Part shown: piece by piece, positions 1,970-28,500 of the stretch | How positions within the stretch are numbered: position 1 is the stretch's first letter | Layout: each line of letters opens with the position of its first letter | Origin: Buxus sempervirens | Taxonomy: Eukaryota; Streptophyta; Magnoliopsida; Buxales; Buxaceae | Length of the DNA stretch: 64,000 nt | Assembly: GCA_947561395.2 (NCBI GenBank) | Contig: OX387182.1 | Location: forward strand, 37,999,949-38,063,948 | Direction of reading: 5' to 3' | Made by a program: the position numbers and the translations under genes | The notes under the pieces: model-generated | Database searches by the model: none | What the model was told of the DNA's origin: nothing | What the model saw: only the letters and a program-made list of their open reading frames with translations

Positions 1970-2073
1970 GCCCGTAAATACACTACGGTCCAACGGGGAC
2001 CGTATAGATACTACGGGCGCGCCTGCCCGTAGATATTTTGCGGGCAAGATCGGCCCGTGAAGTCAATACGGGC
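1970..2073. repeat. Cluster of four GCCCGTA/TACGGGC inverted repeats in U3
   Basis: Four short inverted repeats in about 100 bp: arms near 1970/1989, 1998/2019, 2025/2045 and 2053/2073. Arms are variants of GCCCGTA and TACGGGC with 5-8 base loops. The identical cluster is at 20463-20566. The same motif recurs at 2527-2628, 5734-5835 and 17503-17633. The role is unknown. Position upstream of a TATA box suggests a protein-binding module, and an RNA structure is the alternative. Confidence 0.8.
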
Positions 2074-2176
2074 AAAGCCTGTTCATTCTATTTTTAGGCC
2101 TTTTTGACCTGTTTTAAGCTCTAATTACATGTTTTTATTATTTTCTCATTTGGCAGTGCAATTTGGGGTGTCTACA

Positions 2177-5867: not shown

Positions 5868-5958
5868 CTCCTAGGGAACATCATTGTGACACTTTTATTA
5901 ATTGGAAAACTCCCTGAGCACGTCTTTTCTCGCTTTCCTTGGCTTCTTTGGTGCTTCC

Positions 5959-8716: not shown

Positions 8717-10492
8717 TCATGGAAAATATCTCTTTACTGCATCAGAGTTGATTGGCTCAGGAAAATCCTTCCCATCCATTTCTGTTAAGATGAGAGCACC
8801 CCCTGATAGGACCTTCTTGACCACATAAGGTCCTTCCCAATTTGGTTTAAACTTTCCACAAGGATCTTCCAAAAAGGGTAAAATCTTCTTTAATACCAAA
8901 TTTCCTTCTTGGAAAGTTCTGGGCTTCACCTTTTTATTGTAAGCCCTGGCCATCCTCTTACGATATAATTGGCCATGACTAAGTGCCTTCAAACGTTTTT
9001 CTTCTATTAAATTGAGTTGATCATGTCTTGATTGTATCCATTCAGCTTCTTCTAATTCTGCTTCCATTAGCACTCTTAGTGAAGGTATTTCCACTTCCAC
9101 TGGTAAAACTGCTTCCATTCCATAGACTAAGGAGTATGGGGTTGCCCCTGTAGAAGTCCGAATTGAGGTTCTGTAAGCATGTAGAGCAAGTGGCAGCATT
9201 TCATGCCAATCTTTAAAACTCACCACCATCTTTTGAATAATCTTCTTTATATTCTTATTCGCTGCTTCCACTGCCCCATTCATTTTTGGTCTGTAAGGCG
9301 CTGACTTGTGGTGGGTAATTTGAAATTGTTCACACATCTTCCTCATGTCTTTGTTCTTAAGGTTTGAAGCATTGTCTGTTACTATGGCACTTGGCAAACC
9401 ATAGCGGCAAATGATGTTGTGCTTCAAAAACTTAAGAACATGGCTACTCGTAATGTTCGCATATGAAGCTGCTTCTACCCACTTGGTGAAGTAATCAATT
9501 GCTACCAATATAAACCTGTGTCCATTCGATGCCTTTGGGGAGATCATTCCAATGACATCTATACCCCACATAGAAAAAGGCCACGGAGATGTCATACTGT
9601 GTAATTCACTTGGGGGTGCATTCTTGTTATCTGCGTACACTTGGCATAAATGACACCTTTTAACGTGCATATAGCAATCATGCTCCATAGTTGACCAGTA
9701 ATATCCCAATCGCAGAATCTTCTTGGCAAGCATATGCCCATTCATATGGGGTCCACACACTCCTCCATGTACCGTTTCAACTATCCTCTCTGACTCAGTC
9801 TTTGCAACACATCTAAGTAGTATATCATTGTGTGATCTTTTGTACAACTGCCCACCACTTAGTAAGAACTGTCCTGCCAGCCTCTGTATTGTTCTTTTCT
9901 CTGTAAAGGTGACATTTTCTGGTAAACTCCGATCATTTAGGAAGTTCTTAATGTCTTGAAACCATGGTACTTCTTCTTCTGGGGTTTCTTCTAGAACAAG
10001 GCAGTAAGCTGGTTCATCCCTGACTTCAATTTCCAATGGTCTAATATCAACACCTTCTGGCATACTGACCATTGAAGCCAATGTTGCCAGAGCATCTGCA
10101 AACTGGTTTTTGGCCCTTGGCATATAATTGAAGGAAATTCGAGTAAACTTGGTGCTTATTTCTTCCAAATACTGGTGATAGGGGATCAATTTGTGATCCT
10201 TGGTTTTCCATTCACCAGTTGTTTGGAAGATGATAAGACTCGAATCCCCATATACGTCAAGTTCCTCTACTTCATGATCTAAAGCTGCTTGTAACCCAAT
10301 TATGCATGCTTCATACTCTGCTATATTGTTTGTGCATTGGAATCTTAACTTCACTGCGATTGGGATATGTGCCCCATCTGGCTTGATCAATACAGCCCCT
10401 ATTCCATTTCCATTCATATTGGCGGCCCCATCAAAAAAACATTTGCCATGAGCTTTCCTCTTCTTCCTCTTCAGCAAACAGGATTGCCTCAT
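8717..10492 (-). CDS. Second (archaeal-type) RNase H and integrase of element 1
   Basis: 591 residues. Residues 15-145 are an extra RNase H with acidic residues in FFDGAA (D21), NNIAEYEA (E62), YGDS (D83) and FADALA (D133). A zinc-binding HHCC follows (H242, H249, C280, C283), then the integrase core with D312 (GIDVIG), D373 (VTDNAS) and E409 (NGAVEAANK). The end, with NLVLKK and KFKPNWEGPYVV, is the usual gypsy integrase tail. A second RNase H between pol RNase H and integrase marks the Tat lineage. The ORF overlaps the RT ORF by 62 bases, so expression probably uses the splicing or recoding of the family rather than separate starts. The protein would act in the cytoplasmic particle and then in the nucleus. 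Confidence 0.9.
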   Translation of the reverse strand: MRQSCLLKRKKRKAHGKCFFDGAANMNGNGIGAVLIKPDGAHIPIAVKLRFQCTNNIAEYEACIIGLQAALDHEVEELDVYGDSSLIIFQTTGEWKTKDHKLIPYHQYLEEISTKFTRISFNYMPRAKNQFADALATLASMVSMPEGVDIRPLEIEVRDEPAYCLVLEETPEEEVPWFQDIKNFLNDRSLPENVTFTEKRTIQRLAGQFLLSGGQLYKRSHNDILLRCVAKTESERIVETVHGGVCGPHMNGHMLAKKILRLGYYWSTMEHDCYMHVKRCHLCQVYADNKNAPPSELHSMTSPWPFSMWGIDVIGMISPKASNGHRFILVAIDYFTKWVEAASYANITSSHVLKFLKHNIICRYGLPSAIVTDNASNLKNKDMRKMCEQFQITHHKSAPYRPKMNGAVEAANKNIKKIIQKMVVSFKDWHEMLPLALHAYRTSIRTSTGATPYSLVYGMEAVLPVEVEIPSLRVLMEAELEEAEWIQSRHDQLNLIEEKRLKALSHGQLYRKRMARAYNKKVKPRTFQEGNLVLKKILPFLEDPCGKFKPNWEGPYVVKKVLSGGALILTEMDGKDFPEPINSDAVKRYFP

Positions 10493-12344
10493 CAGGGAAG
10501 TTGGTCTTTAAGGGTTGGTATTCTGGTAAAGGGTGTGCGGCTAAGTGATCTGCAATGGCTTGACCCTTAATGGCTTTCTGTGTGATATAGGTGAGGTCAA
10601 ATTCAGAGAGTAATAACTGCCACTTTGCTGTTCTGCCAATTAAGGCTGGTTTCTCAAATAGATATTTCAAAGGGTCCATGCGGGATATCAATAAGGTGGA
10701 ATGACTAAGGAAATAGTGCCTTAGTCTCTGAGTTGCCCATACTAAAGCACAACAAGTCTTTTCCAAAGGGGAATACTTTGCTTCATATTCTGTAAATTTC
10801 TTACTCAGGTAGTAAATCGCCCTCTCCTTTCTGCTTGTCTCGTCATGCTGTCCTAAGACACACCCCATTGATGTCTCCAAAACAGACAAGTATAGGATTA
10901 GTGGCCTTCCTGGAGTGGGTGGTACTAGCATAGGTGGGTTCAATAAATACTCCTTTATTGTGTCAAAGGCTTCTTGGCACTCATCATTCCAGACTGTCGG
11001 GTTATTCTTTCTTAGAAGTTTGAAAATTGGTTCACAGATAGCGGTGAGCTGTGCTATGAACCGGCTTATGTACTGAATCCTCCCAAGAAAACCCCGAACT
11101 TCCCTCTCGGTTCTAGGTGATGGCATTTCAATGATGGCTTTAGCTTTAGCTGGGTCAATCTCAATTCCTCTTCTGCTTACTATAAAGCCCAACAATTTTC
11201 CTGATGTAGCCCCAAAGACACATTTAGCAGGGTTAAGCCTTAGACTGTATTTCCTAAGCCGGTCAAATACCTTCTTCAAGTTGATCAAGTGGTCTTCTTC
11301 CTCACATGATTTGGCTATCATATCATCCACATAAACCTCCATCTCCTTATGGATCATATCATGGAATAAGGCTGTCATGGCCCTCTGGTAGGTTGCCCCA
11401 GCGTTCTTAAGTCCAAATGGCATGACAGTGTAGTGGAAGGTACCCCAAGGGGTGATAAAGGCTGTCTTCTCTTGGTCTTCCTTAGCCATCTTAATCTGAT
11501 TATACCCAGAAAACCCATCCATGAATGAGAATAGACTATGTACAGCGGTGTTATCCACCAAGATGTCTATGTGTGGAAGTGGAAAATCATCCTTTGGACT
11601 TGCCTTATTCAAATCTCTATAATCTACGCACATTCTGACCTTTCCATCCTTCTTTGGTACTGGTACTATATTTGCAAGCCATTCGGGGTATGTGGAAACT
11701 GCTAAGAATCCAGCTTGGAATTGCTTAACCACTTCATCTTTCACCTTTAATGTCCATTCAGGTTTTAACCTTCTCAGTTTCTGCTTAACTGGCTTAGAGT
11801 CTGGTAGAATGGGTAGCCTGTGCACCACCATATCTGTGTCTAATCCCGGCATATCCCGATACGACCATGCAAACACATCTTCATAATCAGCCAAAAATCG
11901 TATCATTTCATCCCGCTGTACCTCCGATAGACATACCCCAATCTTCACTATTTTTGGGTCATCTTCGGTCCCTAGGTTGATTGATATGGTCTCTTCGATA
12001 TTGGGTTGGACCCCCTTTTCATGACGCTCTAATTGATATGTGATTTCTTTTGGAACGTCGTCTTCTTCGTCCTTGGTCTCTTCTTCAACCCCCATTAGGT
12101 CAAAGTCGAGCTCAAGGTCGAAGTCATACTCATCCTGATCCAATTCCGTTTGCTTATATGGTTCATAAATGGTTTGGACCTTTTTGAAAAATTTATCTTT
12201 TCTATAAAAAACTGAAAAATCTTTTTGTGTTATTTGAGAGCCTTCTACAAAATCTTTCCCTGAAGACGAAGGCTCATTAAAACCTTCAGGAAAAGGGCAT
12301 TCCACTAATGGAGTTTTTTTTTGGAAGCCATGTCTGTTTGCCAA
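10431..12344 (-). CDS. Reverse transcriptase and RNase H of element 1
   Basis: 637 residues. An acidic linker (70-100) precedes RT: PVPKKDGKVRMCVDYRDLN (228-246), FSFMDGFSGYNQI (272-284), TPWGTFHYTVMPFGLKNAGATYQR (298-321) and the catalytic YVDD (338-341). The gypsy RNase H region follows (about 485-605, with LILYLS, AKYSPLEKTCCALVWATQRLRHY). The protein copies element RNA into DNA inside the particle, primed by tRNA at the site beside the right LTR. It overlaps gag-protease by 40 bases. In Ogre relatives the protease-RT boundary is crossed by partial splicing. A comparable device is likely here but is not shown by sequence alone. Confidence 0.92.
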   Translation of the reverse strand: MANRHGFQKKTPLVECPFPEGFNEPSSSGKDFVEGSQITQKDFSVFYRKDKFFKKVQTIYEPYKQTELDQDEYDFDLELDFDLMGVEEETKDEEDDVPKEITYQLERHEKGVQPNIEETISINLGTEDDPKIVKIGVCLSEVQRDEMIRFLADYEDVFAWSYRDMPGLDTDMVVHRLPILPDSKPVKQKLRRLKPEWTLKVKDEVVKQFQAGFLAVSTYPEWLANIVPVPKKDGKVRMCVDYRDLNKASPKDDFPLPHIDILVDNTAVHSLFSFMDGFSGYNQIKMAKEDQEKTAFITPWGTFHYTVMPFGLKNAGATYQRAMTALFHDMIHKEMEVYVDDMIAKSCEEEDHLINLKKVFDRLRKYSLRLNPAKCVFGATSGKLLGFIVSRRGIEIDPAKAKAIIEMPSPRTEREVRGFLGRIQYISRFIAQLTAICEPIFKLLRKNNPTVWNDECQEAFDTIKEYLLNPPMLVPPTPGRPLILYLSVLETSMGCVLGQHDETSRKERAIYYLSKKFTEYEAKYSPLEKTCCALVWATQRLRHYFLSHSTLLISRMDPLKYLFEKPALIGRTAKWQLLLSEFDLTYITQKAIKGQAIADHLAAHPLPEYQPLKTNFPDEAILFAEEEEEESSWQMFF

Positions 12345-15300
12345 ACAAACGCGGCTTCAAAAGTAAGGGGAGTTTCCTCCCAATTATTCAGAATGAAAGA
12401 ATCTGGGGCAGGGATACAAGCCTGCTCCTCAAGCTCAGGATCTGCATCTGAAATCACCAGTACTGGGTGAGTTGCATTGCCTGCTTCTTCGGTAGGGCCA
12501 GTTCCAGATGGAACTTCTACTGCAGCCCAATCAATAAAAGGTAGCTCCTCTGCTACTTTTTCTTGGTTGCCTTCTGTCATGGCAAAGAACGCCCCTATGT
12601 CCTCAGAAAAATCCTGCTTTTGTTCTGTCTGTGGCCCAGGCCCCCCAGATGCTTGAGGAGGTGGAACACATGGTTGTATTGTGGAGGGTTTGGGTTTCTG
12701 GAATGGGTTGACATTGTAGTATGGAGGTTTAGACTGATCCTCAGGAGGAGATAGCTGAATCATGTGAGACAGCTTAGGAAAAGTTTCCCTAATGTGCGGG
12801 AATTTCATAGCTTCTATCTGCCCCTGACTTTTCCATTTCCTTGGCTTGGACCCCAATCCTGCTCTGTGAACCATCTTCTTAACCTGTACTGGTTCTATCC
12901 TTCCTTGCAGGTTAACCCCCAGACCTTTTCCAGGGTGAAAATGGTACTTTTCTAGCACATTCTTGACCATTTTTTCAGCACAGGTCAATTTTCCTTCTTT
13001 TTGCTGATACCCCCCAGGTATATAATTCACAGCTTCAAATTGAAAAGAGTGAAACGCCATTTTATCCGCTGTCATTTCTGTGTTAATACAGGGTACATCA
13101 GGGGACCACATGGGGGGAACCAAATTTTCGGCCAGGACGGTAATCACCTTTTGCCCTCTAATGTATTTGACTCTCTGGTGGAGGGTAGATGGTATGGCCC
13201 TAGCCGTATGAATCCACGGCCTTCCTAGGAGTAGGTTGAAAGCCGCAGGTATATCCATCACTTCAAATGTGATGTTGAAAATATACGGTCCAATTGTGAC
13301 CGGCAGTTCAACCTCCCCTAGGGAGTGTGTTTTAGAGCTGTCAAATGCTCTTATAATTCTTCCGTTTTGTTTTATTTTGTTTCGCTCCAGATTGAGCTTA
13401 ACAAAGGTTACTAAAGGGCAGACATTGAGGGCTGACCCATTATCAATCAAGACCCGGGCTATCATGCAACCCTTACTGAGCACAGCAATGTGCAATGGAT
13501 CCACATGATGGTATCCTGCTGGACTAATTTCCGTTTCAGAAAAGGTTATAACATTATGAGATAATATTTGCCCAACCATCCGGCCTAGTTGGTCTGGTTC
13601 AATGTTTTTAGGCACATGGGCCCCCTGGAGTATCCTTAACAAGGAGTCCCTGTGTTTTTCAGAATTTAACAATAGGCCCAGTATTGAAATCTGGGCAGGG
13701 ACTTTGTTCAATTGCTCGAGGACATTGAACTCACTCTTTTTTATTACCTTCATGAGGTCAGCAGCCTCACTGTTAGTTACCTGAGGGGCCTCTTCCCCTA
13801 CTTTGGCCTTGCCTTTATTTTTTTCTTCTTCTTTATCCTTCTCTGTTTCTTTCTGTTTTTCTTCCGCCCCTACACACTTTCCTGACCTCATCATAAGGTT
13901 TACTTCTTCCTTGCTTTCAATTGCAGGGCATGTAGTGGTAAATGCTTCACTATAGTTCCATGGTACAGCCGATTCAATGTAGGAAGGCTTAGGGACATTC
14001 ACCACCAATGGGGGAAGTTTGGACTTGGCAATGGAAGTCTGAGTAATAGGAACATTAACAACCAATGGAGGAAGTTGTTTTGGTTGGGGGTTTGCAGAAG
14101 TGACTGATGCACTAAGGGGGTCACAATTTATGACCAATGATGGCTTAGACTGAATAGGCGGAGTAAAAGTGGATGGATGGCAATTAATGACCAAAGGTGG
14201 CTTGGTGATGTTCATCTGGGCCATGAGGGATGAAACCCGGTCCAAAGATGAGCTAATGTTCTTTGCAGCACTATCATTCCCCTTTGAAATCATATTTATT
14301 TCTTTACCTTCACTTTTTCTGTCAAAATATACTTTGACCGTTGTCCCTATGGGAGCAATTAATTGAGATGGGTCAAAGGTTATTTTGTCAGAAGAGATGA
14401 CTCCTATGACATTAGATGGGCCTGCCCCGTGATGTTGGGGCAGTGGGTTTTGTCCAATATCTGTTCTTGGAGGATTGGAAGCCCCTGTATTGAAAGACAG
14501 GGTATTCTGGTCTAGTAAATCCTGAATGGCATGTTTCGAAGGCCAGCACTTGTTTGTAGGGTGCTCAGGTGCACCCATATGGTAATCACAAGTGGTGGAG
14601 GGGTCAAAATTTCTCCCCTTAGATGCATTCGGATTAGGTTCTCTTAAGGTGATATACCCTCCTTGCAATAAAGTGGGCAGCAATTGAGAGGGAGTCATTG
14701 GAATAGGGGTGAAAACCCTATTTCTCCTTGCTGCAAAATAGGCATCCTTTTCCTCCTTGGTAAAAACCCTTTTTTGGTCTGAAGGTGCTGCTGGAACATT
14801 AACCCTCATAGGGGCCTGGGTAGGTGGAGATGGAGTAGGAAAATGAGCAGGTACGTTGATTTGTATGGGTTTGTTAGGGCCAGATGGTGGCTGTACCATG
14901 TTTACCTCACCCTCCTTCTTGTTCCCATTCTTTTTTGTTCCGCTTCCTTTCTTTAGGTTGGGGTCCTGCTGGCTAACCATGGCAGAGTGGTCAATTATCT
15001 TACCTGACCTTATTCCGTCCTCAATTCGGTCGGCCACTTGAACCAAAGCTGCAAAATTAGTGGTGGTCTGACCCACCAAGTGGCTGTAGAATGGTTGACC
15101 CAAAGTGCTTATGAAGGTAGAAATCATTTCCTGCTCTAGCATGGGTGGCCTGACCTGGGAGGCCGTCTCCCTCCACCTCTTGGCATATTGCCTTACAGTC
15201 TCTTCTCTTCCTTTGCTCATTCTCATGACGTCATACCTATCTGGCATGATCTCTGAATTGAACCGGTATTGAGTTAGGAATGCATCAGCTAGGTCCTTCC

Positions 15301-15931
15301 ATCTTTTGATCTTTCCATGGTCTAGAGTAGCAAACCATCTTAATGCGGTTCCAGTCAGGCTCCTTTGGAAAAGTTGAATTAGAACACCTTCATCTTGCCC
15401 AAACTGGCATAGGGCACCACAGTATAGCTTTAGGTGGCTCATAGGGCAACCAGTGCCATCATACTTGTCCAAGTCTGGGCACTTAAACTTAGCCGGCAGG
15501 TTAACATTGGGATATAGGCACAGGTCTTCAAAATTGGTGCCTCCAAAGTTGTTTACCCCTTTTACTTCCCTAAGTTCATCTTGGATCATTTCTAGCTTAT
15601 GCATGAACTTTCTTTCAACCTCTTCCCTTATCCTTTCCTTTTCCATAGCCTTGTTTGATTCAGCTGTCTCATCCCTGGTCAGTATAGGTTCAGGGGTGGG
15701 TTCGTAGACGGGTTCAGGAGTTGGTTGCACTGGAGGTGGAACATTGACTTGGGGTGGAGGTGCAGGGTTGGATGTGGATGCCTGGTTCTGGGCCTGCATT
15801 TGTTGGGCCTGCACTTGTTGGGCCTGTACTAACAGTATGTTCTCTAGCATTCGGGCTAGTCCTGCCACTTGTTCTTGGAGTAGAACAACATCTGGATGAG
15901 GAGCATCAACTTCATCTTCAATGGGATTCAT
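12305..15931 (-). CDS. Gag-protease polyprotein of element 1
   Basis: 1208 residues. Gln/Pro-rich N-terminus (36-85), then the Ty3/gypsy capsid domain (about 146-306, with KFKCPDLDKYDGTGCP, LRWFATL, FNSEIMPDRYDVMRM). A zinc-knuckle-like CX2HX5HX4C lies at 448-462, long low-complexity linkers with repeated LVINC/LVVNVP words at 578-648, and a charged Lys/Glu stretch near 690-712. The aspartic protease has VLIDNGSALNV (828-837) and LLGRPW (901-906). A Gly-rich G-patch-like segment follows (about 988-1029, GKGLGVN...GLGSKP). Start chosen at the MNPIEDE methionine, the first in the frame after the leader; element 2 has a matching MNPK start. The single open frame over 3.6 kb supports a recent, possibly still active copy. 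Confidence 0.9.
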   Translation of the reverse strand: MNPIEDEVDAPHPDVVLLQEQVAGLARMLENILLVQAQQVQAQQMQAQNQASTSNPAPPPQVNVPPPVQPTPEPVYEPTPEPILTRDETAESNKAMEKERIREEVERKFMHKLEMIQDELREVKGVNNFGGTNFEDLCLYPNVNLPAKFKCPDLDKYDGTGCPMSHLKLYCGALCQFGQDEGVLIQLFQRSLTGTALRWFATLDHGKIKRWKDLADAFLTQYRFNSEIMPDRYDVMRMSKGREETVRQYAKRWRETASQVRPPMLEQEMISTFISTLGQPFYSHLVGQTTTNFAALVQVADRIEDGIRSGKIIDHSAMVSQQDPNLKKGSGTKKNGNKKEGEVNMVQPPSGPNKPIQINVPAHFPTPSPPTQAPMRVNVPAAPSDQKRVFTKEEKDAYFAARRNRVFTPIPMTPSQLLPTLLQGGYITLREPNPNASKGRNFDPSTTCDYHMGAPEHPTNKCWPSKHAIQDLLDQNTLSFNTGASNPPRTDIGQNPLPQHHGAGPSNVIGVISSDKITFDPSQLIAPIGTTVKVYFDRKSEGKEINMISKGNDSAAKNISSSLDRVSSLMAQMNITKPPLVINCHPSTFTPPIQSKPSLVINCDPLSASVTSANPQPKQLPPLVVNVPITQTSIAKSKLPPLVVNVPKPSYIESAVPWNYSEAFTTTCPAIESKEEVNLMMRSGKCVGAEEKQKETEKDKEEEKNKGKAKVGEEAPQVTNSEAADLMKVIKKSEFNVLEQLNKVPAQISILGLLLNSEKHRDSLLRILQGAHVPKNIEPDQLGRMVGQILSHNVITFSETEISPAGYHHVDPLHIAVLSKGCMIARVLIDNGSALNVCPLVTFVKLNLERNKIKQNGRIIRAFDSSKTHSLGEVELPVTIGPYIFNITFEVMDIPAAFNLLLGRPWIHTARAIPSTLHQRVKYIRGQKVITVLAENLVPPMWSPDVPCINTEMTADKMAFHSFQFEAVNYIPGGYQQKEGKLTCAEKMVKNVLEKYHFHPGKGLGVNLQGRIEPVQVKKMVHRAGLGSKPRKWKSQGQIEAMKFPHIRETFPKLSHMIQLSPPEDQSKPPYYNVNPFQKPKPSTIQPCVPPPQASGGPGPQTEQKQDFSEDIGAFFAMTEGNQEKVAEELPFIDWAAVEVPSGTGPTEEAGNATHPVLVISDADPELEEQACIPAPDSFILNNWEETPLTFEAAFVWQTDMASKKKLH

Positions 15932-16104
15932 GGCTCGAGCTCTTGATCTGGTTACAGGAGCTATGATTGCGAGTGTATTAGTACCTGGAAAAATAAAGAG
16001 AAAATATCAGTGCCAATTTAATCTCATTCACATGCCTATGTGCAAGCTGGGTGAACACGAGTTTGGATTTGTTTCTTTATTTGCTTCTTTTTTTTTTTAG
16101 AATT

Positions 16105-17316
16105 GTTGGAATATTCTAGGGCTTCCAACGGGTCCCACAAAAAGAGAAAAGGATCTGAAATTTAAAGGCTTTCAGAGGCCCAGGGGTGTTTTTGAAAAAA
16201 AGTCTGAAATTCAAAGGCTTTCAGAGGCCCAGGGATATTTTTAGAAAAAGTCTGAAATTCAAAGGCTTTCAGAGGCCCAGAGATTTTTTAGAAAAGTCTG
16301 AAATTCAAAGGCTTTCAGAGGCCCGAGGAAAAAGATCTGAAATTCAAAGGCTTTCAGAGGCCCAAAGGATAGGTATCTATAATTCAGAGGCTTATAGACG
16401 GCCCAAAAGAAAAAGATATGTGTCTATAATTCAGAGGCTTATAGACGGCACAAAGGAATGATTTGTCTAAAATTCAGAGGCTTTTAGACGGCCCAAAGGA
16501 ATGATTGTCTAAAATTCAGAGGCTTTTAGACGGCCCAAAAGAATGATTTGTCTAAAATTCAGAGGCTTTTAGATGGCCCAAAGAAATGATTGTCTAAAAT
16601 TCAAAGGCTTTTAGACGGCCCAAAGGAATGATTGTCTAAAATTCAGAGGCTTTTAGATGGCCCAAAATAATGATTTGTCTAAAATTCAGAGGCTTTTAGA
16701 CGGCCCAAAAATGATTTATCTAAAATTCAGAGGCTTTTAGATGGCCCAAGGAAATGATTGTCTAAAATTCAGAGGCTTTTAGACGGCCCGAAAGAAAAAG
16801 GTCTGAAATTCAAAGGCTTTCAGAGGCCCAAAAGTTCTGAAATTCAAAGGCTTTCAGAGGCCCAAAAGAAAAAGGTCTGAAATTCAAAGGCTTTCAGAGG
16901 CCCAAAAGTTCTGAAATTCAAAGGCTTTCAGAGGCCCAAAAGAAAAAGGTCTGAAATTCAAAGGCTTTCAGAGGCCCAAAAGTTCTGAAATTCAAAGGCT
17001 TTCAGAGGCCCAAAAGTTCTGAAATTCAAAGGCTTTCAGAAGCCCAAAAGATCTGAAATTCAAAGGCTTTCAGAGGCTCGGAGTTTTTTGAGAAAAAGTC
17101 TGAAATTCAAAGGCTTTCAGAGGCCCGGGGTTTTTTGAGAAAAAGTCTGAAATTCAAAGGCTTTCAGAGGCCCAGGATTTTTTTTTCGAGAAAAAGTCTG
17201 AAATTCAAAGGCTTTTAGAGGCCCAAGATTTTTTTGAAAAATCTGAAATTCAAAGGCTTTCAGAGGCCCAAGAGTTTTGAAAAAGTCTGAAATTCAAAGG
17301 CTTTCAGAAGCCCAAG
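16105..17316. repeat. Tandem array of about 28 hairpin units in the leader of element 1
   Basis: Units of 34-50 bp. Each has a 7-8 base arm, a 9-base loop of TTCAAAGGC or TTCAGAGGC type, the matching arm, then GGCCC and an A-rich spacer. The arms vary but stay complementary: GTTGGAA/TTCCAAC (16105), TCTGAAA/TTTCAGA (most units), TCTATAA/TTATAGA (16376-16398), GTCTAAAA/TTTTAGAC (16465-16489). The loop and the GGCCC stay nearly constant. The same kind of array is in element 2 (48934-49231 and 54086-54820). This pattern of paired change suggests selection on, or a copying process that keeps, the fold. Confidence 0.88.
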
Positions 17317-17335
17317 GAACCTTTCTCTATTTTTG

Positions 17336-17404
17336 TTTTTTTTTTTTTGTTTTTTTTTTTGTTTTTTTTTTTTTTTGTTTTTTTTTTTTTTTGTTTTTTT
17401 TTTT
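17336..17404. repeat. Poly-T tract with regular G interruptions
   Basis: Runs of 8-14 T separated by single G. In element sense it is an A-rich tract. Simple sequence, prone to length change. Confidence 0.9.
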
Positions 17405-17502
17405 GAAGCATTTTATTCAAATTTGTTTCCCTTTATCATTATTTAAAGGTTAAAAGAATATTTTAGTGGGAAAAACTGATTAAAGTTGAATATTCCAAGA
17501 AA

Positions 17503-17633
17503 ACCGTATATACAGTACGGTCCAGCCCTGCCCGTATTCAAATTACGAGCAAGCCGTGACCGTATGGAAAACACGGGCGAGCCTAGCCCGTATAACTAAT
17601 ACGGGCAAGCCCAGCCCGTGTACTAAATGCGGT
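17503..17633. repeat. Inverted-repeat cluster in the leader of element 1
   Basis: Five units with arms such as ACCGTA/TACGGT, GACCGTAT/ACACGGGC, GCCCGTAT/ATACGGGC and GCCCGTG/TGCGG. Same motif family as the U3 cluster. Element 2 has its counterpart at 55431-55540 with altered arms. Confidence 0.8.
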
Positions 17634-18843
17634 TTCACCGAATCCTGTTATGTTTTTCCAGTTTTTAGATGGTTTGATCACTTTCATTGTTCGTCCAAAC
17701 GTACGGTTCACCCATTGCAGAGCTTTTAAACTGTCCCAAAGTGGACCTTGGCCTTTTTGCTAAAACACATGCTTAGGAAGGCACATGCACCCTCCAAATT
17801 GACACCATACTCAAGAATTTGGTACCCTTTTGTTGCCTCTTGTATGAACATAGGGTAGGATTGATTCTAAACAGAGTTAGAAACTCTTCCTATGGGCTGC
17901 ACCAATTTTAAAAACATGTATATTTTGGGACCAATTTTATCCCGAACCAATGGGCACTATGACACCCCTATGACATGAAAATAATGCAAAACCATAGGAT
18001 TACCTTGTTACCTTGTTTACCTTCAATATGGCATCCGCATTATGCCCTGGTTTGTAAGCCATGCACACGGCCTTCCCACAATCATACAACCCCATATTCC
18101 CACGTAATTGTGTAATTTAGCCAAAAACGTGTAACTCCACCTTCAAGCGTAGGGTTTTGGGTTTTGGGTTTTGGCTTAATGGCAACTTAGCACTCAAGCC
18201 TAGTGATGACCAGAATCCCAGATCCACGTTATCATCACATCATTAGCTCAAAGTTCTAAGGTGAATGTATTCACTTTCGCTTTCCGAAGTATCGACCTCG
18301 GTGCGCCAAGCTACACACATTCTTGTTCAACTTCCTATAGGTGATAGGTAGGCCGTGTAAAAAATAAAAGGTGCACAGTGCATTGTAAACATAGGTCACA
18401 TTCACAACGTCCCAAACCCTTGCCACTCTTTTCGCAGCCATGCATAAACAAACCAAGGCATAATAGGAAAGCATATTTAAAATAAACAAGTAAATAAAGC
18501 AATCCTATAGCACCCAAAACATGCTCATAAAAAAAAATCATCTATCATGCAAACATATGATCATGTTATACACCCAAAATCATCATGGAGATCATGCTGA
18601 AAATTAAAACATTCTATCCTAAAAATATAGCAGGAAATAAGCATGGTTCAGCAAAACGGACCTCCACTACGCATGTTTGTAGAAACAATCCTATAAATCA
18701 AAATTATGCATGTTTCTACCCCCATGAATTCTTAAGCAATAATTCAGATTTAAAACATACTCAACATGCTTAAGAACACAAAATAGCAAGCAAATCAAAA
18801 AATCAAAAACATGAACAAACACCAAAAGGCTCAAATCTACAAA

Positions 18844-18861
18844 TCCCCAGCAGAGTCGCCA
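18844..18861 (-). other. Primer binding site of element 1 (arginine-tRNA type)
   Basis: Minus strand reads TGGCGACTCTGCTGGGGA three bases inside the 5' LTR. TGGCGACTC...GGGGA is the form reported for Ogre-type elements that use arginine tRNA. The same site type is at 25514-25530 and 56864-56881. Confidence 0.85.
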
Positions 18862-18863
18862 GT

Positions 18864-20669
18864 TGTGAGACATGGGAAAAAATCGATCTAATGATTTCCT
18901 CAATCATCACACGGGATCAAATAAAACAAAGAGTCGCCACCATTCAATTTAGGTGTGAATGGACACCAAAATATTAAATAAGTACAAAAGGCAATTTTAG
19001 GGCAAAATATCCCTCCTAAAAAAAACAACCAGAGATGGGTAAGGGGATTAAGTTATGAACAGGGGAAGGTGTTAGGCACCCCTATTCATCCACACAAGGT
19101 GGTTGCCAGGCATTGTTCATGTTTTACAAATAAAAAAGGCTTGCTATAAAAATCACACAAAATCACAAAAAAGGCAAAAATATATGGTTTTTTCATATGA
19201 ATAGTCTGATTGATCCAGAACTATCAAACATGATCATACCATTCCTAGGGTTTCATGATCAAAATAAAATTGAGATGAAATCAAATAAAATCGATTTAAA
19301 GTGAAAAATCCAAAAATCTGGCTTCAAGTCAAAATTCTAGAAATCTAGAAAAATATGATTTTTATAAAATATTTCAAAATTGAACTTGAATAGTCCAGGA
19401 CATAGATAAAGCCCAAATTTCACATTAAATTAGAAAATAAAAACCAAAAATACCCAAGTTTATGAAAAATATCAAAATGGGAGAATTTAGACCGTAGTGT
19501 CTTCTCTCAATAATGAAAAATAATTTAAAAACAACATCATGAAACCTTAGAATTTACTTTCAGGCTTTTGGATCCAGATCTACCATATTGATCATGATAA
19601 ATCCAGGATCTTAGCCTAAAATCACGAAAATCACGAAAACAGTGCTGTAGGTGCAAAAGTGGCAAAAATCCAAATTTTATCAAAAAGAAGGGATCTCGTG
19701 CTATAATCATCATGGATTCATGTTATTCATTCAGATATATCATAAAAAGCATTAAAACATGATCAGGATATCAAAAGCAGCCGCATCTCACAGATTAGAG
19801 CACATGGGGGTCTACCCTACGGATCCACCTGTTATCTTTTCCCCTAGTTCTCTCTTCACGTTTTACGGCTAGAGAGACTCTTGAGGTACTTAGAGATAGG
19901 TTTGGGAATACAAACACAATCAAAGGCCTTTATTCTATGAACAAAAGAAAAAATAGATATGGGGTTCTATTCTAGGGATCCACCTGTTCCCCTTTCCCCT
20001 AGTTCTCTCTTCACGTTTTACGACTAGAGAGACCCTTGAGGTACTTAGAGACAAGTTTAGGGATACAAAATAGATATGGCCTTATTCTACAGCAATAGAG
20101 ATGATCCTATTACATCTAGAATTGAAGACAGAAAATAAAAAGGGATAGGGGACTTACCTGGATTGAGCAGGCAGGCAGCAGGAGTTCCTTTCTCTTCTCT
20201 TGGAACTTCTTAGAATTCCTTGGCTTCAAAATTTTGTGGCCCTTAGCTAGAGGAGAGAGCCTCTATTTATAGACAAGCACAGGGGCATGGTTGGTCCAGA
20301 AGGATATATCCTGATTCTCAGGATATAGTGAAATATAGAGATAATGCCCATCCATAGTGGCTTTAGCGAATAAAATACTTAATTCGCTCGTTTAAAGATA
20401 TATTGGACTTCAAATAAAGCTCGGAAATCGAGAGGATGACAAAACTTGCACGTGTCTTTAATGCCCGTAAATACACTACGGTCCAACGGGGACCGTATAG
20501 ATACTACGGGCGCGCCTGCCCGTAGATATTTTGCGGGCAAGATCGGCCCGTGAAGTCAATACGGGCAAAGCCTGTTCATTCTATTTTTAGGCCTTTTTCA
20601 CCTGTTTTAAGCTCTAATTACATGTTTTTATTATTTTCTCATTTGGCAGTGCAATTTGGGGTGTCTACA
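18864..20669 (-). repeat. 5' LTR of element 1 (right copy)
   Basis: Starts TGTGAGAC and ends GTCTACA, 1806 bp, about eight single differences from 371-2176 by eye and no visible gap. It carries the inverted-repeat cluster (20463-20566) upstream of its minus-strand TATA box (20263-20273). Confidence 0.95.
20263..20273 (-). promoter_or_regulatory. TATA box of the 5' LTR promoter of element 1
   Basis: Minus strand TCTATAAATAG. It drives transcription leftward through the leader and gag-pol. The upstream GCCCGTA cluster lies about 190 bp away. Confidence 0.7.
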
Positions 20670-20674
20670 AGCAT
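20670..20674. repeat. Target-site duplication AGCAT (right) of element 1
   Basis: Exact copy of 366-370. Confidence 0.95.
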
Positions 20675-21974
20675 ACAAAATATCAAAGAGTTCATATTTC
20701 ATTGATCTTCAACTATGTTAAATAAAAGGTACAAGAGATCTCACCTTGGAGATTTATGATCTCTGTTAATGTGTAGAACTCCTTATAGGACAAAAAAAAA
20801 AAAAGCACTTCAAGGCTTTTTCTTCAAGCACCAAAGGGCACCAAACACTCTCCTTGAGTTGAGAATGAAGAGGGAAGAGAGTAGGAGGGCTTTGGGATGA
20901 ATTTTGAAGGGTTTGGAGAGATTGAGTGATGAAGGAAAGTGTAGAAGATTGGGGGTCGTGTGGGAGCAAAATGGGAGAGGAAAGGAGGAAGTGAAAGAAG
21001 TCGTGCAAGATGAAAGACGGAGAGAAGGGAGTGGGTTTCTTCCCCTTCCAAGAATGGGGGGTAGCCCTCCTTTTATAATGAAAAAAATGAACCGAAAGTA
21101 AATTATAATCACACTTGTTGACCAAATTTTAATTTTATATTTAAATGTAACTAAAACTTAAATAACTTTTAATCTTATCTTGGACACCTCATGGGGGACA
21201 CGTATCCCCCATGTGCAAAATGCTTAATATTATATTATTTCCTAATATCTTTTATTTTCTAATTATCTAAATTACAAGATATTTTTAGATTTTCTTATTA
21301 TTTTATTTAGATCTTTTTGGTTTTTGAGCACATGCATGCTTTGATTTTTTTATTTTCTTTTTTCTTTATTTTAAACCTCTTAATTAGGTGTTGTATGAAA
21401 ATATTATTATTTTAATTGAAGATTCTTTTCTTTTTGCTGTTTTTGCCACATGTGCAGATTTTCTGAAACTTTGACTGCTCATATTTCTTTCATCTGGTAT
21501 CCGATTTCAGCAAACTCAGTGGCGTTGGAATCAGCTCGAGATTCCCTATCCGCTAAGCTAAAGGTTGGCAGCGAACTCGAGCTTTTTAGCAGAAGTGCAG
21601 ACTCGCGTCCCGGAGCCAGTTTTGCTCAAATCTCCTTATCCGGGACTCCGATTCCAGCAAACTCAGTTGTGTTGGAGTCGTGTCGATGCGCCCTTTATGC
21701 TAATATCCAATTGAGCAGCTAATTCGGAGTTCTGCAGAAAGCCGATTTCTGCTATTTCCAGATTTGACCAGCCCATAACTTCTTTATCCGGACTCCGATT
21801 TTAGCAAACTCAGTTGCGTTAGAATCGTATCGAAGTCCTCTTTCCAATGGTATGAAGTTTGGTGGTTAATTTGCAGCCAATCAAAAAGTCAACTTTTTGA
21901 GCCCTTCAAGTTTGACTTTTTCAATTAGGGTTTTATTCTTTCATTTTCGAGGGTGCAAAAATGAGGTGCTGACA
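20675..21974 (-). repeat. 3' LTR of element 3, part right of element 1
   Basis: Matches 27560-28806, ending GAGGTGCTGACA (the right LTR ends GAGGTGCTTGCA). It has a minus-strand TATA box (ATTATAAAAGG, 21068-21078). ORFs seen here (20766-21125, minus) lie in the LTR leader and are not supported as genes. Confidence 0.75.
21495..21860. repeat. Three imperfect direct repeats in the LTR of element 3
   Basis: Units of about 135-145 bp, each with TCCGATT...AGCAAACTCAGT...TTGGAATC-type core. The word GATTYC before and GGAATC after AGCAAACTCAGT can pair, and both words vary between units. Counterparts are near 28330-28690. Confidence 0.7.
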
Positions 21975-22634
21975 GGCCCCAAGCCCAATACCTGGCCCAC
22001 TTTGGTGAATTTTAATAAAAGATAAATTAAATCATTTGGCAACCAGGGTGAGGCCCACTCAAGGGCCCACAAATAGTCCCGGCCCACTTGTGCATAGAAA
22101 TCATTTAAATAATCATACTGGAATTTAAATAAAATCAATTCACTTGAACCAAAGCCCAAAGGGCCTCTCAGGCTAGACTGAGGCCCACAAGGGACACGTG
22201 GGCTCCACCAAGCCCACCAAGGAATCCACGGGCCTTCCAACGGGGCCCGCCCATGCAGACTCATCTCACTTTGAGCTAAAGAAGATAAAATCAAGTAAAG
22301 GGACCCACACCACTTTGGCGGTCCCGCCAGACTTAACTAAATTGAATGCTGGATTAGGAATCGGGTGAGCGAGAGACCAACCGAGTTGACTCAAACCAGG
22401 GAAACTTATGGGACCCGTCACTTGACGGGGTGGACTAGGGTGTCTACGGACTTCCCCAGACCGCAACCGAGAACCTACTTAGAATCTCAAGCCGCAGACC
22501 AAGCCTTAGTAGAAGAACTTAGGCACCCAGGTGTCTGCCTGCACCCCATCAGGCAGTGGCGACTCCAAACAAATCCCGAGGCACACATCGCATTGCGTGC
22601 GCCTCGCCGTGCGACCAAAATCGGGTGCGCACAG
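21975..22634 (+). repeat. Inverted copy of the start of the LTR of element 3
   Basis: Reverse complement of about 25534-26197, GGCCCA-rich, ending ...ATCGGGTGCGCACA where the right LTR begins TGTGTGCACCCGAT. It directly abuts the LTR end at 21974, where an internal region with a polypurine tract would be expected. It is a rearrangement inside element 3 or a second, inverted, truncated copy. Confidence 0.75.
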
Positions 22635-25513
22635 GAGGTTGATTCCTTTTAACCGCCACTTCGGAGGTAAAGGAAGAAGATTTTGAACCGCCACTTCGGA
22701 GGTAAGATTCCTTTTACCGCCACTTCGGAGATGAAGGAAGAGTCCCTGATTTTGATTTTCAGAAACTGCAAGAATTGATTTCTAAAAATTTTGGAAACTA
22801 CAAGAGTTGATTTCCAAAGATTGGTAAATGTCCATGGGATAGTCCCTATGTTTGATCTCCAGGAACTGAAAGAGTTGATTTCTGAAGTTTTTGGAAGCTG
22901 CAAGAGTTGATTTCCAAGAAACTCGAGGAGTTGATTTCTGAGAAACTCCGATAGTTGATTTTCGAGAAACTGCGAGAGTTGATTTCCAAGAAACTATAGG
23001 AGTTGATTTCTGAGAAACTCCAAGGAGTTGATTTCTGAGAAACTGGAGGAGTTGATTTCTGGGAAACTGCGAGAGTTAATTTCCAAGGAGTTGATTTCTG
23101 AGAAACTCCGAGGAGTTGATTTCTGAGAAACTGGAGGAGTTGATTTCTGGGAAACCGCGAGAGTTGATTTCCAAGAAACTTGAGGAGTTGATTTCTGAGA
23201 AACTATAGGAGCTGATTTCCAAGAAACTTGAGGAGTTGATTTCTGAGAAACTCTAGGAGTTGATTTCTGAGAAATTGCGAGAATTGATTTCCGAGAAACT
23301 CGAAGAGTTGATTTCTGGGAAACTGTAGGAGTTGATTTCTGAGAAACTCCGAGGAGTTGACTTCTGAGAAACTGGAGGAGTTGATTTCTGAGAAACTCTA
23401 GGAGTTGATTTCTGAAGTTTTTGGAAGTTGAATTAATTTTCACTTTGATCTCTTTTTAGCCGCTATCTGGGGGGCAAGGGGAGAGTCCTTGTTTTTGGTT
23501 CCAGAAACTGCAAGAGTTGATTTCTGAAATTTTTTGGGAATTTGCAAGAATTTAATTTTCACTCTGATCTCTTTTTAGCCACTATCTGGAGGCAAGGGGA
23601 GAGTCCCTGTTTTTGGGGGTAGTCCCGGTTTGGGGAGAAGTCCCGGTTTGGAAAGAAGTCCCTGCTTGGGGAGAAGTCCCGATTTTTTGGAACCACCAAA
23701 TGATTTCCTCTGGTTGCAGAAGCACAAAATGGCCCTAACTGAAATTTGAGATTAGCAATTGGGATTTTGCCATATTTGGTCTTTACTTGGATTTGAAATT
23801 TCTTCTTTATTTTCTTTTCATCATTTTTTTCTTTTTCAATTGGGCTGATGGTCCTTAACAAGGGTTAGACTCATCCTTGATTTTTCTTGACTTGTTATTT
23901 TGGGCTAGGTCATGACCCATTTATTTCATGATTTTTTTGATTAAGCTAAAGCTGATTGAGGCACAGGGAATTGGAGCCAGTCCCGGTGTAGCTTTGATCT
24001 TTGGAAATTTTTGCATTATTTCCTTTAAAAATGATTTGATCATAAATGTCTGTGCAAATGATCTTGAAGTGTGTGCACTCAATGCATGAAGATGCTTGCA
24101 CAAAATTAAAGCCAGGGCCAAATGGTATTACCATTCAAGAATTCAGTATCAAAAAATGAATATAAAAAGTACACCAAAAAGGGTGTGTGCACAATCCTAA
24201 AAAAGGGTTGGTGCCTCGCAGGGCACGACCTCTAGACACACTTGTGTATGGAAACACCCCGGAGTCCTAGTCTACTTTTCTTTCATCTGCTTTTGACTTC
24301 AGGTATCAAACCAAAAGAATTTACAACTTGCTAGCGAGGGCGAAAATTACATGATATTCACAAAATTTTGCAAAGAATTTGTCCTTAAGGCTGTTGGGAG
24401 CCAAAAGGAAGGATACAAATTTGCTTCAAGGAGGGTAGGCCAAATTCCTAAATCTAGGGTTTGGTGCCCCTACTCAAATCTGGCCTGCTTCCATCTGATT
24501 GTCTGATCTAGCCGGCTTTCATCTGCTCAAAAGGGCGACCCGGACTCAGGGTGCTTCCAGCGGACTCAAATGGGTCGAGGCCCATAGCTCGCAGGACTCA
24601 ATGCATGGACCTAGGGTGGTTCCCCTGATCAAAGTTAGGTTAGCTTTCTAAATTAGGGCTAAGGCAGCCCATGATCTAGGGTTTTACGCCATTTGATGCA
24701 AAAAGCGGGGGTCGCTGCCCCTGATGGACTCGTAGGTTTTAATTTATTTTTTCCTTCTTACTTCATCATTCACACTATCTCACAATCCCAAAACGCGACT
24801 CATTTAGAAGCGTTAGGTGGGGAAGGATACCCAGTCCGAGACATACGCCTACAAGGGTCTGGACCAGTACTGGATCCTCGCGTACCACGGCAAGAAACCT
24901 GTGGCGCTAATGGACTCCAAAAAACTAGGGGGATGGGTTTACCTTGCTTTCCCCGGCAAGCCACGGGAACGTAGGTGCTAATACCATCCCAAAGATCAGT
25001 TTATAGGAGTCAGAAGGGTAGGCTGCTAGAGAGGTCTAAGTCTTGGATAAGAAGAAGCAATATCCGCACTCATACATTCAGGGTCGAATCATCCACGCAG
25101 TCCCCCTCATGCGTGTCACCCCATGCATTTGATCACCATTTTGAAAATTAAATCCAACCACGATGTGGTGATGTGCCCATGTGTGCAGTTAGGCTGAGTG
25201 CTGTGTCTAATCGAGTGAGATTTGACTGGATTTTGTTGATAAAGGAATTTTCACCGTCTCGTGTAGTAAGGTACAGAATTGGCACGCAATACGAGGTTCT
25301 GGGAGAGTCCCCAGGTAAGTGGAGGGTCACAGGGAACCACTTAAATTCCACTTGCCTTAGCCAATTATCTCATCCTTATGACAGGACTCCCCAGAATACG
25401 TAATTACGTGTATTCCACGTCTTACTAAGCGAGGTAGTAAAAAACCCTAAAATCAACTAAATCCCTCTTTAGGTTGACTCATTCTAACCAAGGGTCCTAT
25501 TGGGTTGAGAATT
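22635..25513 (-). other. Internal region of element 3 without visible coding
   Basis: No gag, RT or integrase similarity in any frame that I can recognise. It holds four short ACCGCCACTTCGGAG repeats (22650-22735) and a tandem array (22745-23455). AGTCCC/TTTGGGG words follow (23600-23690), then paired words with CGGCAAG (24890-24960). Probably the leader of a non-autonomous or gutted element. Confidence 0.55.
22745..23455. repeat. Tandem array of short GAGTTGATTTCTGAGAAACT units
   Basis: About 24-30 bp period with some 20 variable copies. The core GAGTTGATTTC and GAGAAACT words persist while the linker (CCGAG, GGAG, ATAG, TCGAG) varies. ORF 22994-23443 (minus) is its translation and not a supported gene. 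Confidence 0.85.
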
Positions 25514-25530: not shown

Positions 25531-25533
25531 GGC

Positions 25534-28500
25534 TGTGTGCACCCGATTTCAGTCGCACGACGAGGCGCACGCAAAACGATGCATACCTCGGGATTTGTTT
25601 GAAGTCGCCACTGCCTAATGGGGTGCAGGCAGATACTTGGGTGCCTAAGTTCTTCTACTAAGGCTTGGTCTGCGGCTTGAGATTCTAAGTAGGTTCTCGG
25701 TTGCGGTCTGGGGAAGTCCGTAGACACCCTAGTCCACCCCGTCGAGTGACGGGTCCCATAGGTTTCCCTGGTTTTGAGTCAATTCAATTGGTCTCTCACT
25801 CACCCGATTCCTAATCCAGCATTCAATTTGGTTAAGTCTGGCAGGACCGCCAAAGTGGTGTGGGTCCCTTTACTTGATTTTATCTTATTATTATTGAATG
25901 AAGTGAGTCTGATTGGGTGGGCCCCGTTGGAAGGCCCATGGATCCCTTGGTGGGCCAATTGTGGCCCATATGTCCCCTTGGTGGGCCTCAGTCTAAACCT
26001 GAGAGGCCCTTTGGGCTTTGGTTCAAATGAATTGATTTTTATTTGAAGTTTAAGTGTGATTATTTAAGTTGATTTCATGCCAAAGCGGGCCGGGATTGCT
26101 TTGTGGGCCCTTGAGTGGGCCACACAGTTGGTTGTCAAGTTGGTTGAGTTATCTTACTTAATCCATGCCAAAATGGGCCAAGCATTGGGCCTGGGGCCCT
26201 TTACCTGGGCTTGGGCTTGAAAGCCCAAGGCTTCCTGAGTTAGGGTTTGGAAACCCTAACCTTGGTTGGGTTTAATGGGCTTAGTGGGCCCGACAGGCCT
26301 TGTCCTTGGTCTCAGCCAAACCATGCCTAAATCTAAGCATCATGCTTCCAAAGTGGGCTTTGGTGGGCCTCAATGGGTTTGGCCCACTCAATCAACTTGA
26401 TTATCTTTATTTAACAAAAGTAACTTTTATCGGGCTTGGTGGGCCCCATTGGAAGGCCCACTGGAAATCAAATTGGACCGGGTCGGTCCATGGCCAATCT
26501 TGGGTTCCCGGGTGACCCGGAAACCCTACTAGTTCGACTGGTTTGATCAAATAAATCAAAAAAACAGCACAAGATCACAAAACGGCAAAAATAACATTCT
26601 GGTAGTGTAACCGGCCTAAGATGCTGGCTACACATGTAGGCCAGTGTATCCGGCATTCTTCACCGGTTACGAATAAGCCTCTATTGATCCGACCTGAGTT
26701 GCCGGATCAACACACAGAGGCCTCTTTTTCAGATTTTTGCACGGGGGTGGGGTTTCAAGGCTTCCTAGGGTGCCCCAGGGATTGTGTGGGCTCCTGTGTG
26801 AGCCCACGTTGGTTTAGGTGAGAGCCACTTGGATTTCTTCTTGGTGTTTTGAAAACTAAAGGGAGGAGGTGGTGGCCGGGGCTTGCCTCCTCCTCTTTTC
26901 CGGACCCACTTGATGCACAGACAGGAACTCAAGTGTCCCTGTCTTGGGTTCCTTTTCCTGCTAAAAGATCCACCATTATCCTACACAGAACAGCAAGCAA
27001 AGTGGAGCATCCACAAACATGCTTCAAGTAAACAAAGACCCAATCCAGCCCCATGGAACATGTGCAAAGGGGCGACTAACTTTTCATGGCCAAAACAGCA
27101 ACTAAACATGAGTTATAACCCTAAGTGAACATATGCAAAAGTAACGAAAAACAAGCATGCTTAAAGCTACGATCCTATCCAAATGAGTAAAGGAACATAT
27201 ATTACCCATCCCTCCTATTATAACCGTATGCACCCAACTCACACATCTACTAAAAAGTGTCTAAAGAAGGGAATAGGGGGGATTAAATGGGGGATACATT
27301 AGAATGAAATGGAAGGAACATGCTCCTCCATTAAATGTAAAATGATACCAATATTAATATCTCTATGGAATAGAAACCCTATACCACTCAAAACCATGCT
27401 TAAGGGACTCTCCTTCTCCTAAAATACCCATCTTACCTCATGAAAGCCACATCCTTGTGATGGCAAATATCAAAACAAAATAGTGAAAACAAAGGAACAA
27501 GCATGCATTTACCCTAGTAACAAGCACACGACATGCACAAAAACCAACATGCTTCAAATCATGTCATCTTTATATATGTTAAACAAGACAAAGAAAGGAG
27601 ACCACCTTGGGGGTTTAGACCCCTTTTTGAGTGTGTGGAACTCCTTTGAAGCTCCACCAGCAGCCGACCACCTCCTTTGGCTCCTCCAAGCAGCAACTCC
27701 ACGCTCCTTCCAAGACTTGCAATGAAGGAGAAGAAGGAGGGGGAAGGGTTGTAGAGTCTTAAGGTTATGCTTGAGGGTTTAGGGAGCCAAAGGAAGGTAA
27801 GGTGAGGGGAGAAGGAAGGAGCAAGTGAGAGAGGTGAGAGAGATTTTGCAAAGAAGAATGAACCGATCCCTTCAAAGTATGCTAAGGTGGCCTTTTATAT
27901 TGCATGACCAAAATGCAATTATTCTCTTGCTTTTTGACCAAAACTTTTCTCTTTCCATTTCATGCCCCCTTTTTTAAGAAAACCAATGATGGTTTTAAAA
28001 CTTAGAGGCCAAGCTTGCTTGAACGAATTCTCCACATGGGAGAATTCGTCCAATCATATTTTCTTTCATTTTATTTTTTCTTTATTTATTTAATTCATTA
28101 GATATTGTACTTTTATTATTATTTTATTAAGATTTTTGTTTTAGGTTTTGGATGTGCATGCATCTTTTAATTTTCTTTTCTTTTTCTTTTATTTTAAATA
28201 CTTTAATTAAATTTTTAGCAAAAATATTATTTTTTAATTCAAAACTTTTTACTTTGCTGCTCTGTCTTCACTATTTGCCACGTGTGCAGATTTTTAGAAA
28301 CTTTAACTGCCCACAACTCCCTCGTCTGATATCCGATTTTAGCAAACTTAGTGGCGTTGGAATCAGTGCGAGATTCCCTATCCACTGAACATCAGTTTAG
28401 CAGCAAATTCGAGTTTTTCAGCAGAAGTGCCGGGCCGCGTCCCGGAGCCAACTTTGCTCATATTTCCTTATTCAGGACTCCGATTCCAGCAAACTCAGTT

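Follow-up and report, generated by a model that had tools for sequence, protein, structure and literature searches.

Tandem stem-loops with covarying arms in the 5' leader of a probable Ogre-lineage LTR retrotransposon

A young Tat/Ogre-like element with a long 5' leader

The window, a stretch of 64,000 nucleotides, is plant-like DNA rich in LTR retrotransposons, as judged by the families found. Element 1 is read from the minus strand, as set by its gag-containing ORF, and has the following parts:

370-2176, minus strand: 3' LTR, compared with 18863-20669 (ends from BLAST, accurate to a few bases)
4518-5177, plus strand: antisense ORF between integrase and 3' LTR, plant mobile domain (PMD, 3.3e-16)
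5902-6849, plus strand: antisense ORF between integrase and 3' LTR, DUF7745 (1.4e-21) and PMD (4.1e-12)
8717-10492, minus strand: ORF with a second RNase H (RVT_3) and integrase (ORF list, domain scan)
10431-12344, minus strand: ORF with reverse transcriptase and RNase H (ORF list, domain scan)
12305-15931, minus strand: gag-containing ORF (Retrotrans_gag, G-patch)
15932-18862, minus strand: 5' leader, 2931 nt, with 46 upstream AUGs
16060-16104, minus strand: A-rich tract (sense) between array and gag (from reading the leader)
16105-17316, minus strand: leader hairpin array, 29 units
17330-17404, minus strand: A-rich tract (sense) directly 5' of the array, poly-T on the plus strand
18863-20669, minus strand: 5' LTR (ends from BLAST, accurate to a few bases), with the sense start TGTAGACACC

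Element 1 is a young LTR retrotransposon, with an LTR pair that is 99.56% identical over 1807 bp (BLAST) and the sequence ATGCT flanking it at both ends (by eye). On the minus strand, two ORFs encode in order RVT_1, RT_RNaseH, RVT_3, Integrase_H2C2 and rve, the Integrase_H2C2 match scoring below its curated cut-off. An additional archaeal-type RNase H (aRH) is described as a mark of the Tat clade of plant Ty3/gypsy elements, and its position between RNase H and integrase as the layout of Ogre/Retand, the angiosperm Tat elements (PMC6317226). Element 1 has the same order, with RT_RNaseH in one ORF and RVT_3 before the integrase in the next; the RVT_3 match and its place suggest that this second RNase H is an aRH. 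An extra ORF with a PMD is reported for 57% of Ogre elements, as a typical and not a defining trait (PMC6317226), and element 1 carries two, both antisense. TRP28 (PF04195), a mark of Retand, had no match in the nine ORFs scanned at E 0.001. Because of the domain order (RNase H, second RNase H, integrase), the PMD/DUF7745 ORFs and the absence of TRP28 from the nine ORFs, element 1 probably belongs to the Ogre lineage of the Tat clade. This assignment from domain content and order agrees with the Tat/Ogre attribution in the first-pass annotation of this DNA.

The leader array is built from paired units

The distance from the array to gag is 174 nt, and to the LTR 1546 nt. Its siting in a 5' leader, proposed in the first-pass annotation, was borne out by the 2931-nt minus-strand leader upstream of the gag ORF. 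Read in sense, each unit consists of a GGGCC spacer, a 7-nt arm ending in AA, a loop that starts with GCC or GCT and ends with A, and a second arm beginning with TT. A search of the window for the unit core with up to three mismatches gave 40 matches, 28 at 16154-17308 and 12 at 48-55 kb, and the same pattern had no match in 100 dinucleotide shuffles. The earlier figure of about 28 tandem units corresponds to these 28 near-exact copies, to which a divergent 29th (16105-16129) with the arms GTTGGAA/TTCCAAC and an 11-nt loop has to be added.

Watson-Crick pairing was found in 202 of 203 arm cells, and 28 of the 29 units are perfect. The units form blocks of four perfect arm types (TCTGAAA, TCTAAAA, TCTATAA and GTTGGAA), plus one mismatched unit, and all four arm pairs quoted earlier are found in the array. 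The GGCCC spacer, which had been named as shared by the units, is intact in 24 of the 29 units by manual count but not in the remaining five; the middle block of ten TCTAAAA/TCTATAA units has one extra base before the spacer.

A diverged relative keeps the pairing with new arms

The unit matches at 48-55 kb lie in element 2, an older relative of element 1 on the same strand (47.6-58.5 kb). The two elements share 72-76% identity in LTR pieces, 76% in a leader piece and 71% in a gag piece, a single alignment of leader and LTR gave 66% over 3.7 kb, and the gag start ATGAATCC is common to both. The array of element 2 is arranged as follows:

48935-49230, minus strand: gag-proximal part of the array (unit matches, pairing tests, covariance model)
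49232-54067, no strand assigned: inserted element splitting the array, with TGTAA...TTACA ends (by eye), outside the array proper
54068-54840, minus strand: LTR-proximal part of the array (unit matches, pairing tests, covariance model)
54900-54938, minus strand: A-rich tract (sense) 5' of the array, in the same place as in element 1

The insert is flanked by GGCCT and GGCCC, which differ by one base, and its insertion site is a GGCC spacer of the array. Parts of the insert also match 30321-33317 at 78-95%.

The arms of element 2 are more varied, with GTTGGAA/TTCCAAC, CTTGGAA/TTCCAAG, TCTAGAA/TTCTAGA and TTTGAAA/TTTCAAA among the examples, and a CCTGAAA/TTTCAGG unit reaches 9 bp if neighbouring bases are counted. 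Pairing is perfect in 16 of 25 units and holds in 164 of 175 arm cells. When the units of the two elements are pooled (54), each of the two innermost pairs is A-T throughout (54/54), the third pair from the loop is paired in every unit with three pair types, and the loop begins with G in 53 units and ends with A in 52 (sense). A lack of pairing in other family members had been named in advance as the result that would speak against a preserved fold; the diverged element 2 in the window keeps the pairing, with new arms.

We also counted hairpins in 17 tandem stretches. Three stretches exceeded all 60 shuffles, namely the element 1 array, the right part of the element 2 array and 44510-44784. 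The left part of the element 2 array contained six hairpins, equal to the largest of 60 shuffles, and in a second count with other settings six against a maximum of four, above all 100 shuffles.

Arm changes are paired beyond founder copying

Pairing in a tandem array could result if two or three founder repeats, palindromic by chance, were copied as whole units. Element 1, taken alone, is compatible with such copying: with its four perfect arm types it gave two paired events (null mean 0.02, max 1, 0/500), no arm pair at E<0.05 (per-pair E at least 1.9) and several non-arm column pairs that outscored the best arm pair, as block-wise copying would produce. An array of copies derived from four perfect arm types, as in element 1, is on its own weak evidence for covariation. 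The decisive evidence comes from the arrays of element 2, outside 16105-17316.

Our comparison covers two elements of one genome, both within the window, and the 25 units of element 2 were chosen by visual inspection, with their pairing as part of the reason. This selection bias is answered by an anchor test, for which GC[TA]T sites were taken without looking at the left arm. In element 2, 22 of 26 anchors paired at six or more of the seven positions (null 7.0%) and 16 of 26 at all seven (null 1.6%). The corresponding count at six or more positions was 29 of 29 in element 1 (null 12.7%), 1 of 14 in a control leader stretch and 1 of 78 in a control coding stretch.

On a tree built from the 39-column units of both elements (54 units, 51 distinct rows), 14 events changed both sides of a pair, one of them leading to G.U, and 12 were one-sided. 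The null for the paired events had a mean of 0.79 and a maximum of 5, and 14 was reached in 0/500, which is the phylogeny-aware covariation looked for in a conserved structured RNA. Element 2 alone gave 14 paired events (null 0.62, max 3), and in four slid registers no paired event was seen on the tree. The five variable arm pairs (3-7 from the loop) ranked 2, 1, 23, 4 and 7 among 741 column pairs by APC-G, with E values of 0.005, 0.005, 25, 1.2 and 2.4; the value for pairs 3 and 4 is the resolution limit of the simulation (G statistic null of 200 simulations). Thus, two of the seven arm pairs are significant at E<0.05 over both elements, two (the innermost) are invariant and three are not significant singly. 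A spacer column pair, which is not an arm pair, ranked third of the 741.

With one row for each of the 19 distinct arm types, pairing held in 83 of the 95 cells belonging to pairs 3-7, compared with a null mean of 47.6 and a maximum of 68, and 83 was reached in 0/20000. The MAFFT alignment A1 (27 of 54 units) was excluded from the counts, its 3' arms being out of register because of differing loop lengths. In alignment A2, restricted to the 16 units with nine-nt loops, 95.5% of 112 cells were paired and the covariation score was 0.212, each reached in 0/500 shuffles, and slid registers gave at most 54.2% pairing. Three pairs changed on both sides, which 17 of 500 shuffles reached, and three further pair types were reached by 497 of 500. 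Of the 50 matches listed for a covariance model built from these 16 units, the 46 with E<0.5 all fall within the two leader arrays, in sense; the other four (E 0.54-0.96) comprise two in array antisense, one in array sense and one in the inserted element.

Founder copying therefore cannot explain the pairing. The founders themselves differ by paired changes, the two elements together have nine perfect arm types and need at least eight paired steps, and a minimum spanning tree of the arm types has 11 paired steps, of which a single edge, leading to a shifted-register type, accounts for three. As an account of the family such copying is refuted, and as a general explanation we regard it as highly improbable, yet it does account for the copy number inside element 1. 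The first-pass annotation had offered founder copying as the test of its own reading, a test not safely passed on element 1 but passed once element 2 is added. In two diverged elements, Watson-Crick pairing of the arms persists through changes in their sequence, as the annotation had claimed, a pattern suggesting that it is the fold that is preserved.

Template switching and the fixed loop

A second way to keep arms paired requires no selection: a nascent strand copies the opposite arm and thereby writes the change of one arm into the other. Tandem arrays and reverse transcription both favour strand switching. Template switching during replication or reverse transcription is a published source of compensatory changes and of stem fixation (PMC8794818), and six of the eight spanning-tree edges between perfect arm types are a single paired change, which fits either process. 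Against this mechanism, none of the 54 loops looks inverted: read in sense, G is the first base in 53 and A the last in 52. Moreover, element 2 has decayed and still carries 11 broken arm cells out of 175, which ordinary genomic replication has therefore left unrepaired. The mechanism also predicts no preference for the sense strand, and it needs a separate cause for the fixed loop start and spacer. We consider mutational maintenance rather unlikely and tentatively infer that selection, and not template-switch repair, maintains the pairing. Sequence is kept at the loop start (GCY) and in the loop-closing AA/TT pairs, and less strictly in the GGCC spacer. A fixed loop start with free arms has the look of a candidate binding site made of shape plus motif, and would be hard to obtain from mutation alone.

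Fold predictions moderately favour the sense RNA

For the three array stretches, predicted hairpin probabilities in sense and antisense (spans up to 60 nt) were 0.65/0.38, 0.57/0.43 and 0.79/0.31; sense was higher in all three, comparisons that are not independent because the two elements are related. Sense units with a probability above 0.5 numbered 18 of 29, 11 of 17 and 6 of 8, so not all hairpins are predicted to form. When loops and spacers were shuffled with the arms fixed, the gap between sense and antisense was reached 5, 1 and 1 times in 60 (tiled version), and the sense probability itself by 9, 9 and 24 of 60 shuffles. As the latter is unexceptional, the strand effect is partly a suppression of antisense folding. 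In 22 of 25 arm-loop combinations the loop ends are G..A. The fold predictions and the G..A loop closure lend moderate support to sense RNA, rather than DNA, as the folding strand. An RNA or cruciform fold had been proposed for the array; the RNA side of this proposal is moderately favoured by the fold predictions, but the wobbles show no sense bias, the 12 non-Watson-Crick cells being two G.U, three A.C and seven others.

Individually the stems are weak, with scored energies of -2.4 to -6.4 kcal/mol. Folding of the leader, suggested in the first-pass annotation, favoured the sense hairpins in all three stretches but argues against a very stable overall fold: an 891-nt stretch of the element 1 array showed no extra stability against shuffles (z -0.34 sense, +1.46 antisense; 20 shuffles each). 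The right part of the element 2 array was unusually stable (z -6.06 sense, -5.75 antisense; again 20 each). Rfam 15 gave four matches at E<=1 for 15900-20700, all below their gathering scores.

Hairpins are possible on both strands, and the unusual stability of the right part of the element 2 array also applies to both. These points would fit a role of the array in DNA or small RNAs, either as cruciform-prone palindromes or as a dsRNA/siRNA decoy region, and decoy leaders are described for pararetroviruses (PMC5902531). However, arms of 7 bp are short for cruciforms and the fold preference is one-stranded. The stems are also far below the length used by Dicer enzymes. We judge such a role improbable.

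A separate candidate, an H-type pseudoknot between the spacer GGGC and the loop GCCU, was not supported as a covarying helix. At least three bases can pair in 42 of 54 units, with element 1 contributing 26 of its 29 and element 2 16 of its 25. The element 2 count is within reach of loops shuffled among its units, which gave a mean of 14.4 and reached 16 in 206 of 2000 shuffles.

Upstream AUGs and a possible role in translation

The element 1 leader has 46 upstream AUGs: 44 precede the array (18812-17411), two come just before gag (16033, 16027), and none starts in sense in the 1.4 kb between them (17410-16034). The array itself has no sense AUG, where a first-order model predicts 11.3 and the opposite strand has 12. 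In both elements, A-rich tracts flank the array (by eye). The array and its A-rich flanks could thus form a region of ribosome landing or internal entry that leads past the upstream AUGs to gag, and structured shunts are known from the leaders of plant pararetroviruses (PMC5902531). Several observations make this unlikely. The AUG deficit is by our estimate mostly explained by a single AUG-free founder of which the units are copies; the 5' part, with 44 AUGs, is close to what its composition predicts (36.8); the element 2 array contains eight sense AUGs against 14.0 expected; and shunt leaders have a single long stem, in contrast to the weak, isolated stems of the array. AUG depletion as proof of function was rejected, as the units are not independent despite the large raw deficit.

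A possible Gag docking platform

The explanation that we put first, tentatively, is a multivalent platform for Gag on the genomic RNA that would serve packaging and/or dimerisation. The leader of the genomic RNA would carry about 25-30 short stem-loops in series, each repeated stem-loop acting as a docking site recognised by its hairpin shape and the fixed AA-GCY...A-TT top. The reader would most likely be the element's own Gag polyprotein, and many weak sites in a row would mark the long RNA for co-assembly into particles. Unequal exchange could let the copy number grow or shrink while each unit stays functional.

Retroviral packaging signals likewise lie in the leader and comprise several stem-loops, as does the array described here; they differ in consisting of a few distinct stem-loops that are bound by CCHC knuckles. 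In the gag ORF of element 1, neither the motif C-x2-C-x3-5-H-x3-5-C nor Pfam (zf-CCHC) revealed the CCHC zinc knuckle of such a nucleocapsid, so recognition in the retroviral style is unsupported. A new mode of genomic-RNA recognition, in which a knuckle-less Gag would read a series of 25-30 covarying and mutually interchangeable stem-loops, expandable in number, by their fold and AA-GCY...A-TT top, is a doubtful prospect at this stage. If true, it would amount to a multivalent 'barcode of shape', with a dose tuned by copy number and arms drifting freely between families.

LTR retrotransposons fill large shares of plant genomes, and little is known about the way they choose their own RNA for packaging. 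A repeated stem-loop with covarying arms offers a concrete cis element for probing and deletion. With dozens of natural replicates per element, the array could also be used to tell whether paired changes reflect selection for RNA structure or template-switch mutation, as asked in PMC8794818.

Relation to known systems

Short family-specific tandem repeats inside the element are described for other members of the Tat/Ogre/Retand clade as well, where the arrays are placed between pol and the 3' LTR or in the 3' UTR region (PMC11963269, PMC7004042, PMC6317226). Unlike the arrays in these descriptions, that of element 1 is composed of covarying hairpins and sits in the 5' leader. Another parallel is Ty1 of yeast, in which packaging and dimerisation signals are also reported in structured 5' RNA and compensatory mutations in the 5' TIPIRT domain rescue transposition (PMC5454406). 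As described there, this domain differs in being a compact pseudoknot with two kissing hairpins and not a tandem series of near-identical stem-loops; the same source notes that RNA recognition for virus-like particles is little known. The shunt or decoy leaders of plant pararetroviruses are long, structured and rich in upstream AUGs, as here, but are described with one large stem-loop and defined uORFs (PMC5902531) instead of many small hairpins.

Among the titles and abstract openings listed from open-licence literature, we found no covarying hairpin array in the leader of a plant LTR element. The unit core pattern had no match in viral contigs, and a search there with the RT protein gave 29 pattern stretches, none confirmed. 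A looser core matched two bacterial stretches in genome contigs, with one match each, and a 15-base pattern matched at least 120 stretches in viral contigs, 80 of them with one match each among the matches listed; both were taken as chance.

Further repeats and hairpins in the window

The leader of element 1 contains a possible second cluster of GC-rich hairpins, some of them imperfect and identified by eye:

17495-17640, minus strand: possible second GC-rich hairpin cluster, CCGTA/TACGG type

By eye, its arms read CCGTAT/ATACGG in element 1 and CCGCA/TGCGG in the element 2 counterpart at 55424-55545, an apparent paired change from T-A to C-G between the elements. Hairpins with arms of at least 6 bp numbered two in element 1 against a null of 0.4, equal to the largest shuffle (2), and none in element 2.

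The stretch 44510-44784 is another tandem array of hairpins, mostly GTTCAC/GTGAAC, with six hairpins against a null of 0.7 (max 3). At 22760-23415, 24-bp tandem repeats with GGAGTT/AACTCC arms gave five hairpins, not above chance (null 2.7, max 6). Finally, 21975-22634 and 25533-26198 form an inverted repeat of about 660 bp with 87% identity.
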